DNA from: Spiribacter curvatus
GTDB lineage: Bacteria > Pseudomonadota > Gammaproteobacteria > Nitrococcales > Nitrococcaceae
NCBI RefSeq assembly: GCF_000485905.1
Contig: NC_022664.1
Coordinates: 1,302,001-1,366,000 of the forward strand
Length of the DNA stretch: 64,000 nucleotides
Direction: 5' to 3'
The position numbers were made by a program, and so were the translations under genes. The notes below the pieces were generated by a model. The model ran no database searches. It saw only the letters and a program-made list of their open reading frames with translations, and was not told where the DNA came from. Shown here in pieces: positions 40,112 to 46,577 of this stretch. Within the stretch, counting starts at the first letter, position 1. Each line of letters opens with the position of its first letter.

Positions 40112-42190
40112 ATGCAAGCCGACAACCTCAACCAACCGGCCCTCTACCTCAACCGCCAACTCAGCCTGCTGGCATTCAACGAGCGGGTCATGGCACAGGC
40201 CGCCGATCTGTCCAACCCCCTTCTCGAGCGACTGAAATTCCTGTGTATCGCCAGCTCGAATCTCGATGAGTTCTTCGAGATACGGGTCGCCGGACTGCGT
40301 CAGGCCCGGGAGCTGGGCGTGGGACAGAGTGGACCGGATAATCGGTCACCCCAGCAGATCCTGCGCGAGATCAGCGAGCGCACTCATGCGCTGGTGGACG
40401 AGCAGTATCGGCTCCTGAATGACGAGGTCACGCCGGCCCTGGCTGAGGCGGGCATCCGCTTTCTGCGCCGCAACGAATGGACCGGCGAGCAGCAGGACTG
40501 GATCCGCGCCTATTTCGAGACCGAATTGCTGCCGATCCTGAGTCCGCTGGGGCTGGACCCGGCTCACCCCTTCCCGCAGGTGCTCAATAAGAGCCTGAAC
40601 TTCATGGTGTCGCTGGAGGGTAAGGATGCCTTTGGCCGCAGCAGTGGCATGGCCGTGGTCCAGGCGCCCCGGGCGCTGCCACGGATCATCAAGCTGCCCT
40701 CGGAGCTGGATGGGGGCGGCGCCTGTGACTTCGTATTCCTGTCATCGATCATTCATGCCCACGTCACTGATCTTTTCCCGGGCATGAAAACCACCGGCTG
40801 CTATCAGTTCCGCGTCACGCGCAACTCCGATCTCTACGTCGACGAAGAGGAGATCGACGATCTGCTCCGGGCGATGGAGGGCGAACTGCCCTCGCGCCGC
40901 TATGGCGACGCGGTACGGCTCGAGGTGGCGGCGAACTGTCCTGAGCATATGGCCAGCTTCCTGCTTGAGGAATTCGAGCTCGAGCCCGAGGCGCTCTATC
41001 AGGTCAACGGTCCCGTCAATCTCAACCGCCTGCTCGCGGTCTGTGACCTGGTTGACCGTCCCGATCTGAAATACCCCGGTTTTACACCGGGACTACCGGC
41101 GGAGCTCAGTCACAGCGGGGATATCTTCAAGGTCATGCGGCGGCGCGATGTCCTGCTGCATCACCCCTTCGAGTCGTTCGCGCCGGTGATCGAGTTACTC
41201 CGCCAGGCCGCTCAGGATCCAGATGTTCTGGCGATCAAACAGACCCTCTACCGAACGGGGCCCGACTCGGCGGTGGTCGATCACCTGGTGACGGCGGCCC
41301 GCGCCGGCAAGGAGGTCACCGTGGTCGTTGAGCTCCGTGCCCGCTTCGACGAGGCAGCGAACATCGGTCTGGCGAACCGGCTGCAGGAGGCCGGCGCCCA
41401 TGTCGTCTATGGCGTGGTGGGGCATAAAACGCATGCCAAGATGATGTTGATCGTCCGCCGTGAGGGTCGCCGCCTTCGGCATTATGTGCACCTCGGCACC
41501 GGCAACTATCACTCGCGGACCGCAAGGCTTTATACCGACTATGGTCTGATGACGACCCGATCTGCGATCGGTCAGGACGTCCATCGTGTCTTTCTGCAGC
41601 TCACCAGTCTGGGGAAGGTATCGGCACTGAACCACCTGCTCGAGTCACCCTTCACGCTGCATCCAGGGATGCTCGAGAAGATCGCCCGGGAGCAGGCCCA
41701 TGCCGAGGCCGGGCGCCCCGGGCGCATCATCGTGAAGGTCAATTCGCTGGTCGAGCCGAGAGTGATCCGGGCGCTTTATGCCGCCTCCCAGGCAGGCGTT
41801 GAAATCGATCTGATCGTGCGCGGTATGTGCTGCCTGCGACCCGGCGTCGAGGGCGTGAGTGAGACCATTCGTGTTCGCTCGATCATTGGCCGCTTCCTCG
41901 AGCACACCCGAGTCTTTTATTTCGCCAACAACGGCGATCCGGACCTTTTCTGCAGCTCTGCCGACTGGATGGAGCGCAATTTCTTCCGCCGTGTCGAGGC
42001 CGCTTTCCCGGTACTCGATGCCGAGCTGCGGGATCGGGTGCTGGCCGATCTGCAGACCTATCTCGCGGATAACAGCCAGGCCTGGGTGTTGGACTCCGAG
42101 GGTCGCTATGAGCGGCTGACGCCCGGTGATGAGGAGGAAGCCGTCAGTGCTCAGCACGCCCTGCTGGAGGGCTATGGCGAGGGCAGCTGA
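40112..42190 (+). CDS. ppk: polyphosphate kinase 1
   Basis: Enzyme of 692 residues that polymerises the gamma-phosphate of ATP into polyphosphate. The N-terminal domain starts LYLNRQLSLLAFNERVMAQA, followed by the head domain and two PLD-like catalytic domains. The autophosphorylated His is in GHKTHAKMMLI (about residue 440), and the second essential His is in HLGTGNYHSRTARLYTDYG. The GMCCLRPGVEG motif lies in the C2 domain. An AGGACAGGGA ribosome-binding site is present. Its TGA abuts the stop of the convergent ppx exopolyphosphatase gene with no intergenic base. Confidence 0.96.
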   Translation: MQADNLNQPALYLNRQLSLLAFNERVMAQAADLSNPLLERLKFLCIASSNLDEFFEIRVAGLRQARELGVGQSGPDNRSPQQILREISERTHALVDEQYRLLNDEVTPALAEAGIRFLRRNEWTGEQQDWIRAYFETELLPILSPLGLDPAHPFPQVLNKSLNFMVSLEGKDAFGRSSGMAVVQAPRALPRIIKLPSELDGGGACDFVFLSSIIHAHVTDLFPGMKTTGCYQFRVTRNSDLYVDEEEIDDLLRAMEGELPSRRYGDAVRLEVAANCPEHMASFLLEEFELEPEALYQVNGPVNLNRLLAVCDLVDRPDLKYPGFTPGLPAELSHSGDIFKVMRRRDVLLHHPFESFAPVIELLRQAAQDPDVLAIKQTLYRTGPDSAVVDHLVTAARAGKEVTVVVELRARFDEAANIGLANRLQEAGAHVVYGVVGHKTHAKMMLIVRREGRRLRHYVHLGTGNYHSRTARLYTDYGLMTTRSAIGQDVHRVFLQLTSLGKVSALNHLLESPFTLHPGMLEKIAREQAHAEAGRPGRIIVKVNSLVEPRVIRALYAASQAGVEIDLIVRGMCCLRPGVEGVSETIRVRSIIGRFLEHTRVFYFANNGDPDLFCSSADWMERNFFRRVEAAFPVLDAELRDRVLADLQTYLADNSQAWVLDSEGRYERLTPGDEEEAVSAQHALLEGYGEGS

Positions 42191-43720
42191 TCAATCCTCA
42201 GCGATTTTCAGGCGAAAGCCAGCCGCCTCGAGGTAGCCTGCTTCCTCGTTGAGGTCGGCCTCCACCAGCGGATTATCCTCCAGCCAGCCCGCTGGAAAAC
42301 GCACCGTCAGTTTGCGGTCCGAAGCCTTGAGGGTGAGTGACGGTAGCGGCTCATCACTTCGTGCCCGGTGGAGACCAACGGCCAGACGCAGCAGCACGGC
42401 GAGCCGGATCGAGTGCTGCTGCCAGTCACCGGGGAGATCACGGAATGCATTGCGCGGAAACTTGCGCCGGTGGGCACGGATCAGGATCGCCAGCACCTGC
42501 TGCTCCTCGCGTGCGAAACCAGCCAGATCGCTGTGCCGGACGATGTATTCGCCGTGCTTGTGATACTGGCTGTGAGACAGATCGAGGCCGATCTCATGGA
42601 TCCAGGCGGCCCAGTTGAGCGTGTCACGTGCCGTCGCGGTCTCGAGCGCCCAGTCATCCGCCACCTGACGACGGAGATACTCCGCGGACCGGGCGACTCG
42701 TCGGGCCTGATCGGCATCGACATGATAGCGCTCCGCCATCGCATCAATGCTCTCCGTGCGCACATCGGTGTGGCGGATCCGCCCGATCAAATCCAGCAGC
42801 AATCCCTCGCGGAGCGCTCCGTCGGCGGCCTCCATATGCTCCAGGCCCAATTGCCGGAAGGCCCCCAACAGCACCGCGAGCCCACCGGGCAGCACCTCGG
42901 CGCGGGCGGCACCCACACCATTGAGCCTGAGTCGCTTGATATCACCCGCCTTCATCAGCGCGCGGCGCAGTTTTTCCAGGCCGCGGATATCGATGCCGTT
43001 TGTGGTCCAGCCATTCTCGCGCAGGCAGCGCTCAATCGCGCGAATCGTACCCGAGGCACCAATGGCCCGCTCCCAGCCCAGCCGGCGGTAGCGGTCCGAA
43101 ATCGGTTCCAATTCCCGGCGTGCCGCGATCTCGGCGTTCCGGAGACGCTTATCGGTGATACCACCATCGGCGAAGAATCGCTGCGTGGTGCTCACGCAGC
43201 CCATATGCAGACTCTCCATCTCCCGCGGCACGAAGTGCTCGCCAATGATGAACTCGGTACTGCCGCCGCCGATATCCATCACCAGCCGCCGGTCGTCGTC
43301 ATCAGCGATGCTGTGGGCGACGCCCAGATAAATCAGCCGCGCTTCCTCATAACCGGAGACGATCTGAATGGGATGGCCCAGCGCACGCTCCGCTTCGCTC
43401 AGGAATTCCCGCGCATTACGCGACTGCCGAAGGGTATTGGTCCCGACCGCGCGGACAGCCCCCTGGGGTAATTCCCGCACGCGCTGACCGAATCGCTCGA
43501 GGCAGGCGAGCGCCCTTTGACGCGCCTCGGCGGAGAGCTGTTTATCGTCATCGAGGCCGGCGGCGAGCCGCACCGATTCCCGTAATCGGTCATGGGTGCG
43601 TAGCGCGGATTCCTCCGGTCGCGCGATGATCATGTGGAAGCTATTCGATCCCAGATCGACGGCTGCGACCTCATCCGCTTCAGCGGCCGCGTCGATTGCC
43701 TGCGATTGGTCGCCAGCCAT
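42191..43720 (-). CDS. ppx: exopolyphosphatase / guanosine pentaphosphatase family (Ppx/GppA)
   Basis: Phosphohydrolase of 509 residues with the actin-like ASKHA fold. Phosphate-loop motifs are VAAVDLGSNSFHMIIAR near the start and LVMDIGGGSTEFIIGE near residue 150. The C-terminal HD-like helical domain (IHEIGLDLSHSQYHKHGEYIVRHSDLAGF) is present, which favours full-length Ppx or GppA. The sequence does not settle whether polyphosphate or pppGpp is the main substrate; proximity to ppk supports Ppx. The ATG at 43720 is chosen over a TTG one codon earlier. It is 18 bases downstream of the diguanylate cyclase gene and probably co-transcribed. Confidence 0.92.
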   Translation of the reverse strand: MAGDQSQAIDAAAEADEVAAVDLGSNSFHMIIARPEESALRTHDRLRESVRLAAGLDDDKQLSAEARQRALACLERFGQRVRELPQGAVRAVGTNTLRQSRNAREFLSEAERALGHPIQIVSGYEEARLIYLGVAHSIADDDDRRLVMDIGGGSTEFIIGEHFVPREMESLHMGCVSTTQRFFADGGITDKRLRNAEIAARRELEPISDRYRRLGWERAIGASGTIRAIERCLRENGWTTNGIDIRGLEKLRRALMKAGDIKRLRLNGVGAARAEVLPGGLAVLLGAFRQLGLEHMEAADGALREGLLLDLIGRIRHTDVRTESIDAMAERYHVDADQARRVARSAEYLRRQVADDWALETATARDTLNWAAWIHEIGLDLSHSQYHKHGEYIVRHSDLAGFAREEQQVLAILIRAHRRKFPRNAFRDLPGDWQQHSIRLAVLLRLAVGLHRARSDEPLPSLTLKASDRKLTVRFPAGWLEDNPLVEADLNEEAGYLEAAGFRLKIAED

Positions 43721-43738
43721 CAAAAATCCCCCAACGCT

Positions 43739-44806
43739 CTATGCTGACTCTGTATCGATACGGGCCCGCTCGATGCCTTGCCAGATATCCGCATCCGATG
43801 ACCGGAGCATGCTGGTACCCAGCACACAGCGCATACGCTGTGTCGCCGGCAACGGCGCGAAACGGCGGTTCTCGATGCAGTTGCGCAGTTTTTGCGCGAC
43901 GCGGCTGGCCTCTTCGTCTGCTGCATCAGGCAGCACGACGAGGAATTCCTCACCCCCATAGCGGCCCAGACCATCGATATCCCGGACACAGCCGCGAAGC
44001 CGCCGCGCCACCTCGCGGAGAATCTCATCCCCGATGGCATGACTGTAGTCGCGGTTGATGCGCTTGAAATGCAGCAGGTCGATGAATATCACCGCCAGCG
44101 GTTGCCCCAGTCGCTCCGCGCGCTGACGCTCTTGATCGAGGAAGGCGATGATCGCGCTGCGATTGCTGATCCCGGTGAGGGGATCGAGCACCCGCAAGTC
44201 GTGGACCTCTTCGCGGGCGCGTTGGAGGTCGATCTGGCGATCCCGCAGCAGCCGCCGCAGCTGACTGACATGACTGGCGAAGAACCCGCCGCAGGGCACT
44301 AGCGTGCTGAGTGCAACCAGATGCAGCAGCTCCACCTGGGCATTGAACGCATCCGGGCGCTGATGCCAGACCGCCCCCACCGCCAGCGCGTAGCAGAAGA
44401 GCGCGAATCCACCGAGCGCGGTGAATTGCGGGGCGTTGAGGCGGAGCACGCCAAACATCAAAAGCACCAGAAACAGGAGCAGCAACCCGCCACGGCCACC
44501 ATCCAGCAGATACATCGTGATACCCATGAGCAGACAGACCATGAACATCTGCAGACCGGTCAGACTGGGGTCGACGAAATGCTCGTTACGGCCGCTGCGC
44601 AGCAATACATAGAGCCCCACGTTGACGAGGAGGACAACCAGGCTCAGGAACTGCCATTCGGGCACCGCCAGCAGCCCCTGCCGCACATAGAGCCCCATCA
44701 GCGCCACGGCCAGGGCATAGACCGTTGCCGCCAGGAGGAAGCGGCGCACCCGCAGCGACTGGCGCGGATCATCCTGGGGCAATACCATGCCCAGCGGGAG
44801 CTTCAT
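43739..44806 (-). CDS. membrane-bound diguanylate cyclase (GGDEF)
   Basis: Protein of 355 residues with about six membrane spans in the first 190 residues, then a short coiled-coil helix (LRRLLRDRQIDLQRAREEV) and a GGDEF domain. The active-site loop is GGEEF near residue 284, with the RDID inhibitory site for c-di-GMP five residues before it, so product inhibition is expected. LTGISNRSAIIAFLDQE and FIDLLHFKRINRDYSHAIGDEIL complete the catalytic fold. No EAL domain. The membrane part matches no named sensor domain that I can recognise. Translationally coupled (ATGA) to the upstream DUF2721 gene, suggesting they work together. Confidence 0.93.
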   Translation of the reverse strand: MKLPLGMVLPQDDPRQSLRVRRFLLAATVYALAVALMGLYVRQGLLAVPEWQFLSLVVLLVNVGLYVLLRSGRNEHFVDPSLTGLQMFMVCLLMGITMYLLDGGRGGLLLLFLVLLMFGVLRLNAPQFTALGGFALFCYALAVGAVWHQRPDAFNAQVELLHLVALSTLVPCGGFFASHVSQLRRLLRDRQIDLQRAREEVHDLRVLDPLTGISNRSAIIAFLDQERQRAERLGQPLAVIFIDLLHFKRINRDYSHAIGDEILREVARRLRGCVRDIDGLGRYGGEEFLVVLPDAADEEASRVAQKLRNCIENRRFAPLPATQRMRCVLGTSMLRSSDADIWQGIERARIDTESA

Positions 44807-45198
44807 TCCTCTGACTCCAATTCGGCGAGCTGGATATTGATCGCGTTCACGGAGATCCAGATCTCACGCACGGAAAGCCCCAGTGAAACCATCATCAGGA
44901 TCAGGCTGAGGCCAAACAGCCAGCGCGCCACCAGCACGAAACCGCCGAACAGCAGGAACATGCTCGCGACACAGGCGAGCAGACTGCCGACCCCGGCGGC
45001 CTGCATGTACTGTATGAGCCGGACACGGCGTCGCAGGTTATCGATCTGCTCGAGCAGATTGCGGCGTGGCGTCGAGGAGTATCTCGCCTGCAGGTCGCGG
45101 ATCAGCGAGGCGAGTGCCAGAAACCGGTTGGTGTAGGCGAGCAACAGCAGGGAGACCGCTGGAAACAGCAGCGACGGCGTTCCCAGCGTGAGGTCCAT
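44803..45198 (-). CDS. DUF2721 membrane protein
   Basis: Protein of 131 residues with an N-terminal span (SLLFPAVSLLLLAYTNRFLALASLIR), a basic helical cytoplasmic stretch rich in Arg (DLQARYSSTPRRNLLEQIDNLRRRVRLIQ), then two further spans (SLLACVASMFLLFGGFVLVA and LFGLSLILMMVSLGLSVREI) and an acidic tail. This is the pattern of DUF2721, whose function is unknown. Its stop overlaps the diguanylate cyclase ATG. It follows the secreted helical protein gene by 23 bases. Confidence 0.85.
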   Translation of the reverse strand: MDLTLGTPSLLFPAVSLLLLAYTNRFLALASLIRDLQARYSSTPRRNLLEQIDNLRRRVRLIQYMQAAGVGSLLACVASMFLLFGGFVLVARWLFGLSLILMMVSLGLSVREIWISVNAINIQLAELESEE

Positions 45199-45221
45199 AC
45201 CCGCTTGCTCCCCGGTACCGC

Positions 45222-45794
45222 TTATTGTGCGCCGTTGCCGGCACCACCCGCCGAACCGGAGCGGCGCTGACCCTGCACCTCCGATCGCAGGCTCTGGAAG
45301 CGCTCGATCATAGCCGGCACCTCATCGTCGATATCGCTCATGGCGCTCACGATGTCGTCCTGCAACTCGACCTGCTCTTCCTGGATGCCGCTGTCCTGCA
45401 TGGCGGTACGGCGCGCCTCGAGGAGCGACTGGCGCATACTCTGGTATTCCTCCATCAGACCGGCCCGCTCTTCCTCGGCCACGTCGCCGCCCCGAAGCTG
45501 ACTGGCGATGTCCTGCAGCCGCTTGACGTCCGCCCGCGGGTTGACACCCTCATCACGCATCCGCGACATCATGCGGTCCTCCAGGGACTGCTGGCGATCA
45601 CCCAGATTGGGGTTCTGGTTGATCGCCTCCTCGCGGATGGATGCCAGCGACTGCTGGAGCGACTGCAGCTCTTCGCGCTTTGCGGACGGGCCATCGGTAT
45701 TCTGGGCCTGTGCGATGCCCACCGCACCGAGCGCCGATACAGCGAGCATCAGGACGGTACGCCGCGCCCAGCTGGGAAGAAATAATGTCGACAT
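45222..45794 (-). CDS. secreted helical/coiled-coil protein, unrecognised
   Basis: Protein of 190 residues with a signal peptide (WARRTVLMLAVSALGAVGIAQAQ). The mature part is almost entirely charged and helical, rich in Glu, Gln and Arg with heptad-like spacing (KREELQSLQQSLASIREEAI; EERAGLMEEYQSMRQSLLEARR), and has a Gly/Ser/Ala-rich tail. No cysteine is present, so it is not a lipoprotein. The start at 45794 has GGAG in the preceding bases. It heads an operon with the DUF2721 protein, diguanylate cyclase and ppx. I do not recognise a family; a periplasmic sensor or structural partner for the membrane proteins is possible. Confidence 0.78.
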   Translation of the reverse strand: MSTLFLPSWARRTVLMLAVSALGAVGIAQAQNTDGPSAKREELQSLQQSLASIREEAINQNPNLGDRQQSLEDRMMSRMRDEGVNPRADVKRLQDIASQLRGGDVAEEERAGLMEEYQSMRQSLLEARRTAMQDSGIQEEQVELQDDIVSAMSDIDDEVPAMIERFQSLRSEVQGQRRSGSAGGAGNGAQ

Positions 45795-45893
45795 CGATGA
45801 CTCCATCCTGTCTGTTTGAACCGAAAGTAGGCTGGCAAAGTACCAGCCCGTGACGTTGTCGTGTCAACAATCCCCTACAATAATCGGGTTATC

Positions 45894-46577
45894 ATGTCGC
45901 GAATGACTGCATCACACCGGCCTGAATCATTCCAGCGCCACCATCAGCCGGATCAATTCGGCTACAGCTCGCGTGTCGTTTTCCTGGAACAACCTGTTGT
46001 TTCGACCCATGATTCGGCCGGACAGGCCGTCCCATGGTTCCCTGACATCGACGATTATCTCGATGCCTACCACCGGGTGGGCGCGCCATGGCTGTGGTCC
46101 GACCGGCTGGCTATGGGCAGGGAGCGCATCACCCGCGACCTCTCGGATCCGCGTCAGCAATGCTGGCGGGTCGACGATGAACGGGGTTTCGCGGGCTTCT
46201 GCGAGCTTGTCTCCCGCCGACCGGGCGATGCCGAGGTCCTCCACTGCGGCGTTGTCCCCACGGCTCGCGGTCGGGGGCTGGGGCGGCGTCTTATCAACAG
46301 CGCACTGACGGGTGCACGCGCGCTGGGGGCACAACGGCTCTGGCTGCACACCTGCAGTGAGGACTCCGCGGCGGCACTGGGCTTCTATCAGCGAGCCGGG
46401 TTCCGGATTTTCGCCACCCGGCTGGAATGGGTTATCGATCCGCGACGCCGCGGTCTTCTTGATGCCGGCGCAGGCGATGCCGTGAACCTGCCATGGACCG
46501 GCGAAGCGGCCGTCAATGCGTTCAGCGCGGCCGCAGATGCCGGTTCAGACGTCGCTCGATCAGCCGGAAACCGCTGA
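45894..46577 (+). CDS. GNAT family N-acetyltransferase
   Basis: Protein of about 227 residues. The acetyl-CoA motif A is LHCGVVPTARGRGLGRRLINSAL, and motif B is ALGFYQRAGFRIFATRLEW. The N-terminal 100 residues include VPWFPDIDDYLDAYHRVGAPWLWSDRLAMGRE, suggesting a member of a bacterial GNAT group with a substrate-binding lid. Substrate unknown. The ATG at 45894 is preferred because a TACAAT -10-like element at 45876-45881 would place an earlier GTG (45861) upstream of the transcript. The last 56 bases overlap the convergent ABC permease gene. Confidence 0.78.
   Translation: MSRMTASHRPESFQRHHQPDQFGYSSRVVFLEQPVVSTHDSAGQAVPWFPDIDDYLDAYHRVGAPWLWSDRLAMGRERITRDLSDPRQQCWRVDDERGFAGFCELVSRRPGDAEVLHCGVVPTARGRGLGRRLINSALTGARALGAQRLWLHTCSEDSAAALGFYQRAGFRIFATRLEWVIDPRRRGLLDAGAGDAVNLPWTGEAAVNAFSAAADAGSDVARSAGNR

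Follow-up and report, generated by a model that had tools for sequence, protein, structure and literature searches.

Is the GGDEF-domain protein encoded in a 64,000-nucleotide stretch of the Spiribacter curvatus genome (contig NC_022664.1, positions 1,302,001 to 1,366,000, hereafter the window) an ordinary membrane diguanylate cyclase, and what ties it to the genes with which it is packed? The locus (42191-45794) comprises four genes, all on the minus strand, which in order encode a secreted, mainly helical protein (here SEC), a DUF2721 membrane protein, a membrane protein carrying a GGEEF domain (here GGD) and an exopolyphosphatase-family phosphatase (ppx). Gene calling confirmed this layout and the spacings of 23, -4 (an ATGA overlap) and 18 bases that a sequence-only reading of the DNA had given. 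SEC, DUF2721 and GGD form a conserved operon joining envelope proteins to a GGDEF protein whose catalytic region is derived, and it is GGD that the new result concerns. GGD is most likely an envelope-coupled GGDEF regulator that binds guanosine triphosphate (GTP), with putative cyclase activity. For the envelope-signalling operon reading as a whole, with SEC as partner, a signal passed to a GGDEF dimer and a rebuilt phosphate side, we estimate a probability of about 0.5.

GGD (43739..44806) consists of a six-helix membrane domain, a helical stalk and the GGEEF domain (43742..44188). It belongs to the GGDEF family, with a PF00990 score of 113.8 bits against a gathering score of 23.8 (E 9e-33), and its AlphaFold2 model (mean predicted local distance difference test score, pLDDT, 88.4) superposes on PleD (2wb4) with Z 23.4 and a root mean square deviation (rmsd) of 1.4 over 151 aligned residues. 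We aligned 33 sequences, all of which match PF00990, namely 16 from the GTDB family and 17 of the 20 distant relatives found through the membrane domain (11 in the order, nine in a class sample), the remaining three being G031, G296 and the second G233 match. Three aligned rows came from named records, and in this gene L002 is the same as G020, L006 as G018 and L008 as G019. With residue roles taken from PMC7288161, the equivalents of PleD D327, N335, D344 and E370 and the RxxD motif of the inhibitory I-site are kept in all 33 sequences (Asp for E370 in G170) and likewise in three further family members (G005, G009 and G011). In the window protein these are D243, N251, D260, G284-G285-E286-E287-F288 (the GGEEF motif, residues 284-288) and the feedback-inhibition motif R275-x-x-D278. 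Fold, metal and guanine residues and RxxD are thus as in a canonical GGDEF domain of the PleD type.

GGD differs from PleD on the phosphate side. The Asn-Asp pair of the PleD type, Asn-Arg in the window protein, is Asn-Arg or Asn-Gln in 16/16 aligned family proteins and in none of the 17 relatives, and the terminal ALYxAK..GR motif, present in 17/17 relatives (GLY in G033; GRG for GRN in G170), is missing from all 16. Both changes recur in G005, G009 and G011, so that 19/19 family proteins are derived in this way, and in all 19 Arg stands in place of the Asp that closes the canonical A-D pair immediately ahead of ALY. The derived proteins form one clade (support 100/100), whose sister group is the pair of proteins from G033 and G034 (89/87). 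The GGDEF core is under purifying selection, with a ratio of non-synonymous to synonymous substitution rates (dN/dS) of 0.055-0.16 in the seven of ten pairs where it was computable, including 0.115 and 0.162 in the two pairs made of genomes in which GGD is the only full-strength GGDEF match.

Several points about the domain count against our reading. PleD K442 and R446 bind the GTP phosphates (PMC7288161, PMC12943098), and because this Lys and Arg of the last helix have no equivalent in any of the 19 family proteins, GGD is not filed here as a proven cyclase. SGEEF replaces GGEEF in 4/19 family sequences, and in three of the four the K332 equivalent is missing as well; constraint on the C-terminal tail is weak (dN/dS 0.15-0.33 in five pairs and 1.43 in one, six of ten being computable); and dS is saturated in many pairs. 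Judged by its residues the domain may not catalyse, and the changes could be decay. With Asp turned into Arg in all 19 proteins, the surroundings of the lost K442 and R446 equivalents have acquired positive charges, which may act as compensation.

A possible explanation, though the less probable one, is that the GGDEF domain has given up cyclase activity and serves as a nucleotide receptor, for GTP, guanosine tetra- or pentaphosphate ((p)ppGpp) or cyclic di-GMP (c-di-GMP), that links the cytoplasm to the SEC/DUF2721 envelope part. That both residues contacting the phosphates, and the Asp next to Asn, have disappeared in 19/19 family proteins and in 0/17 aligned relatives is consistent with this, as are retention of the I-site and the lack of a phosphodiesterase or PilZ match in several hosts. 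Degenerate, GTP-sensing GGDEF domains have been described (PMC7288161), and PleD has, by the titles of PDB entries 9g85 and 9g86, been solved with ppGpp and pppGpp, which possibly connects GGDEF domains in general with (p)ppGpp. However, GGEEF (SGEEF in four) and the metal and guanine residues are under strong purifying selection and would be needless in a pure c-di-GMP receptor. In the envelope-signalling reading, the domain would still bind GTP-Mg and c-di-GMP, and GGD, as a putative cyclase, probably still makes c-di-GMP; the phosphate-binding side would have been rebuilt, one Asp position having changed to Arg or Gln and another to Arg as the terminal-helix Lys and Arg were lost.

The part of GGD that would receive the signal is modelled as six long N-terminal helices (residues 14-42, 48-71, 83-100, 105-122, 125-149 and 156-206). 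No Pfam MASE-type family matches the N-terminal 200 residues of the window protein at E 0.01, and over the same region MASE3 is matched by 1/33 aligned sequences (E 0.0089). The six-helix domain alone retrieves nothing among solved structures by sequence. The whole GGD model, on which the comparison rests, matches ImcA of Pseudomonas aeruginosa (8wcn), a membrane diguanylate cyclase, across membrane domain, stalk and GGDEF domain; residues 13-355 of the model take part, 324 of them aligned at Z 20.6 and rmsd 5.8, and Foldseek gives a template modelling (TM) score of 0.59 by query. Identity is 17-21%, and the sequence profile of GGD matches ImcA from profile position 151 on only, and so not over most of the membrane part. 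By description, DgcY of Halomonas hydrothermalis shares with GGD six membrane spans, a helical linker and a GGDEF domain; in that halophile it is catalytically active as a cyclase and is linked to salt stress (PMC12421958). In the account available there, DgcY is without the I-site RxxD and lies in an ectoine degradation cluster, whereas GGD keeps RxxD and sits with SEC and DUF2721.

The association of the three envelope-related genes was followed through the GTDB order (54 genomes), the GTDB family (23 genomes) and Spiribacter (14 genomes). A close GGD is present in 19/23 family genomes, 13 of Spiribacter and six of other genera, and in all 19 SEC lies upstream of GGD with nothing but DUF2721 called between them. 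DUF2721 is within the unit in 15 of the 19. It was not found anywhere in the genomes of the other four, of which G012 has the SEC stop and the GGD start overlapping as ATGA and G003-G005 have about 250 bases between the two genes; DUF2721 is dispensable to the unit. The GGD membrane domain occurs in 27/54 order genomes, the weaker matches being distant relatives. The GGD that adjoins SEC in G033, which belongs to another family, has a canonical GGDEF domain; in G034 the two genes are on separate contigs, and G026 has two small genes between them. Elsewhere in the order (G035, G036, G038, G039 and G041) SEC lies beside DUF2721 with no GGD. SEC is the shared member of the unit, because it adjoins GGD without DUF2721 and DUF2721 without GGD.

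Could these genes simply have stayed neighbours by shared ancestry and genome compaction, with no functional tie? Spiribacter genomes are small and streamlined (PMC3832224), and SEC is near-universal in the order, often with other neighbours, as such an explanation would have it. Yet the gene order survives over five genera of the family while the flanks differ, and in the DUF2721-less G012 SEC directly overlaps GGD; we consider this explanation very improbable. In the envelope-signalling reading the helical periplasmic SEC would be the constant partner of GGD and DUF2721 an accessory membrane subunit. SEC, alone or together with DUF2721, would hand an envelope signal to the six-helix domain, and the stalk would carry it on to a cytoplasmic GGDEF dimer.

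A promoter-like element upstream of SEC (45841..45867, minus strand) emerged from genome comparison, with TTGACA at 45862-45867, 14 bases and GCTGGTA at 45841-45847. TTGACA-N14-(A/G)CTGnTA stands 5' of SEC in 12 of the 13 Spiribacter genomes, the thirteenth (G012) having TTGACC and a wider gap. The element is absent from the results of a consensus promoter scan, whose single match lay on the opposite strand and equalled the shuffled mean in number. To judge from the sequence, the element and the short gaps fit one transcript. The following points stand on the other side. Terminator-like hairpins 5' of SEC (45849-45829, minus strand, between TTGACA and the SEC start) and inside GGD (an overlapping group at 44478-44501) weigh against a single transcript; the terminator scan found four against a shuffle mean of 1.7. 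G015, at a completeness of 74%, lacks all three genes, its one GGDEF match lying elsewhere, the fragmented G006 and G007 have SEC with no GGD found, and G022 has only distant GGD relatives. Outside the family SEC is mostly without GGD nearby. Because SEC homologues occur in 52/54 genomes of the order and mostly in such surroundings outside the family, SEC is not specific to GGD and has another, perhaps older, role. What stands of the earlier claim of an operon and envelope module is that SEC, DUF2721 and the GGDEF gene are conserved together, probably co-transcribed, and supply membrane and periplasmic parts; its ppx part is not supported.

That part had placed ppx (42191..43720, ATG start) under the control of the module. 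The protein belongs to the Ppx/GppA phosphatases, matching PF02541 (E 8e-72) and domain III PF21447 (E 8e-52); TIGR03706 exo_poly_only scores just over its cut-off, and two long NCBIfam models score alike and under theirs. It lies directly downstream of GGD in 13/13 Spiribacter genomes with GGD and adjoins GGD in 0/6 genomes of other genera, being not found beside GGD in G001, G003, G004, G005 and G008, whilst in G002 ppx is about 1.3 kb off and, with ppk, past two other open reading frames (ORFs), one a histidine-phosphatase family gene. Because of this 13/13 against 0/6 the ppx link is a genus feature, and control of polyphosphate or (p)ppGpp through ppx is unsupported. The explanation that the locus is an ordinary envelope-sensing diguanylate cyclase module also exerting such control draws on the GGEEF domain, the membrane parts and the constant downstream position of ppx in Spiribacter. 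In an Agrobacterium that makes curdlan, this product is affected by each of three factors, a GGDEF gene, ppx genes and the stringent response, with no direct GGDEF-ppx tie seen in the part of that article available (PMC3293034). This explanation is unlikely, as ppx is non-adjacent in the six unit genomes of other genera, the catalytic region is not ordinary and DUF2721 is dispensable; the literature search, as far as its sources extended, showed no tie of such a cyclase to ppx.

The wider c-di-GMP network of Spiribacter bears on what GGD does. Among the 14 Spiribacter genomes PilZ is matched in none, HD-GYP (PF13487) in one (G009) and EAL in six; the same models match in five (PilZ), four (HD-GYP) and six (EAL) of 14 named control genomes. 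Eight of the 14 have no match to EAL, HD-GYP or PilZ, one of the eight being only 74% complete and effectors outside these Pfam families not having been searched. That is odd for an active cyclase and belongs with the points against our reading, as does the completeness of the genomes concerned. GGD is the sole GGDEF match over the cut-off in G010, G012, G013, G017 and G018, and in G016 and G019 the one further match that passes it is a protein whose Cys pairs resemble a zinc ribbon and whose end is weakly GGDEF-like; GGD is therefore the only full-strength GGDEF match in 7/14 Spiribacter genomes. No EAL, HD-GYP or PilZ was detected in these seven, of which three (G012, G013 and G018) are at least 98% complete and the other four 84-87%. 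The window's own genome has 12 GGDEF and six EAL matches. The main text of the Spiribacter genome paper, in the part available, has no occurrence of GGDEF or c-di-GMP (PMC3832224).

Where no other c-di-GMP genes are detected, GGD would act as a lone, local regulator. An unlikely and tentative extension is that an envelope-bound cyclase has been rebuilt for a new GTP-dependent output, the rearranged pocket charges serving to sense or make something other than ordinary c-di-GMP. If true, this would be why streamlined halophiles with no detected phosphodiesterase or PilZ receptor have retained GGD as their one GGDEF protein. The family allows the role of a GGDEF protein to be studied in a natural setting from which the rest of the network has gone, for which G013, with one GGDEF match and no EAL, HD-GYP or PilZ match, would be a simple host, and it names SEC, a secreted helical family without a Pfam entry, as a likely envelope partner.

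The zinc-ribbon-like Cys-pair protein is present at three loci (L121, L122 and L124, i.e. G011, G019 and G016), with TackOD1 in L121 and L122, the G016 protein being judged by sequence only; its weak GGDEF-like end keeps an RxxD-like motif. At all three loci its gene overlaps or adjoins a gene read by eye as a glycosyltransferase, adjoining it in both G016 and G019, and the two are possibly a c-di-GMP-controlled exopolysaccharide pair.

SEC (45222..45794, ATG at 45794) has 190 residues including a signal peptide, cleaved at about AQA/Q as read by eye, and 182 of its residues were modelled by AlphaFold2 as six confident helices (mean pLDDT 88.8). The window protein matches zero Pfam families at E 0.01, and among 50 SEC relatives there are only isolated, scattered Pfam matches, such as Metal_resist in one (E 0.0015). 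Like the Spy/CpxP-type periplasmic proteins SEC is secreted and helical, but it scores far under the NCBIfam Spy cut-off (16.4 against 174 bits, a weak match at E 0.0084). With the SEC model Foldseek gave nothing at E 0.001 or better and all VIA-align rows had Z < 8; the structural comparisons show common helical arrangements only, and a Spy/CpxP relationship, weak by sequence, was set aside. In other families of the order the island around SEC is conserved and includes a gene of the glutathione S-transferase family, adjoining SEC or a few genes off (L078, L079, L081, L088, L090-L093, L097 and L098), some of these islands also containing an M23 peptidase gene, and one genus of the order has SEC in tandem duplicate (L081 and L082).

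The DUF2721 protein (44803..45198) matches PF11026 with 125.1 bits against a gathering score of 28.3 (E 2e-36, supported by alignments). By eye it has three membrane spans and an Arg-rich loop, predicted as cytoplasmic by the positive-inside rule; its profile gave no convincing match among solved structures. The family is present in 34/54 genomes of the order, and in the 19 of these outside the family the GGD membrane domain is beside DUF2721 in none (by genome coordinates, the search there covering the GGD membrane domain only). The class sample, 321 genomes including G000, G001 and G053 of the order, was scored on the 10 to 12 best first-look candidates in each genome and gave the lower bounds of at least 19 genomes with SEC (one match weak and partial), at least 31 with DUF2721 over the cut-off and at least 10 with the GGD membrane domain; by the listed coordinates no two of the three are adjacent outside the order. 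We read 19 loci from among the 28 DUF2721 genomes over the cut-off outside the order, where gene calling was crude (longest ORFs plus homology) and one locus, L102, ends at a contig edge just past DUF2721. None has an immediate GGDEF neighbour; in L114 a GGDEF-like gene is one ORF away, and in L104 and L120 (by BLAST grouping only) one is within 5 kb. A general DUF2721-GGDEF association, which the sequence-only reading had proposed, is accordingly rejected on the loci covered, DUF2721 being missing also from 4/19 unit genomes. SO_1320 of Shewanella oneidensis resembles the window protein in family and in its three spans; point mutations in it confer formate tolerance (PMC12093963). Its putative operon differs from the window in consisting of yadS and SO_1318, with no GGDEF gene seen in the text available (PMC12093963).

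DUF2721 proteins 58-62% identical to that of the window are encoded in an Anaerolineales metagenome-assembled genome and in Pontibacter ruber (Bacteroidota) (L003 and L004), an identity that points to transfer over wide distances or to strong conservation. Another DUF2721-like subfamily, distant from the first (L103, L105, L111, L112 and L114), has an APVFLL motif near the N-terminus and about 20% identity to the window protein.

Two further genes flank the four-gene locus and are given here as context. On the plus strand upstream of SEC is a divergent GNAT acetyltransferase gene (45861..46577), which adjoins the unit in only part of Spiribacter. At the other end ppk1 (40112..42190, plus strand) is convergent with ppx, and the stop codons of the two stand back to back at 42190/42191 with zero bases between them.

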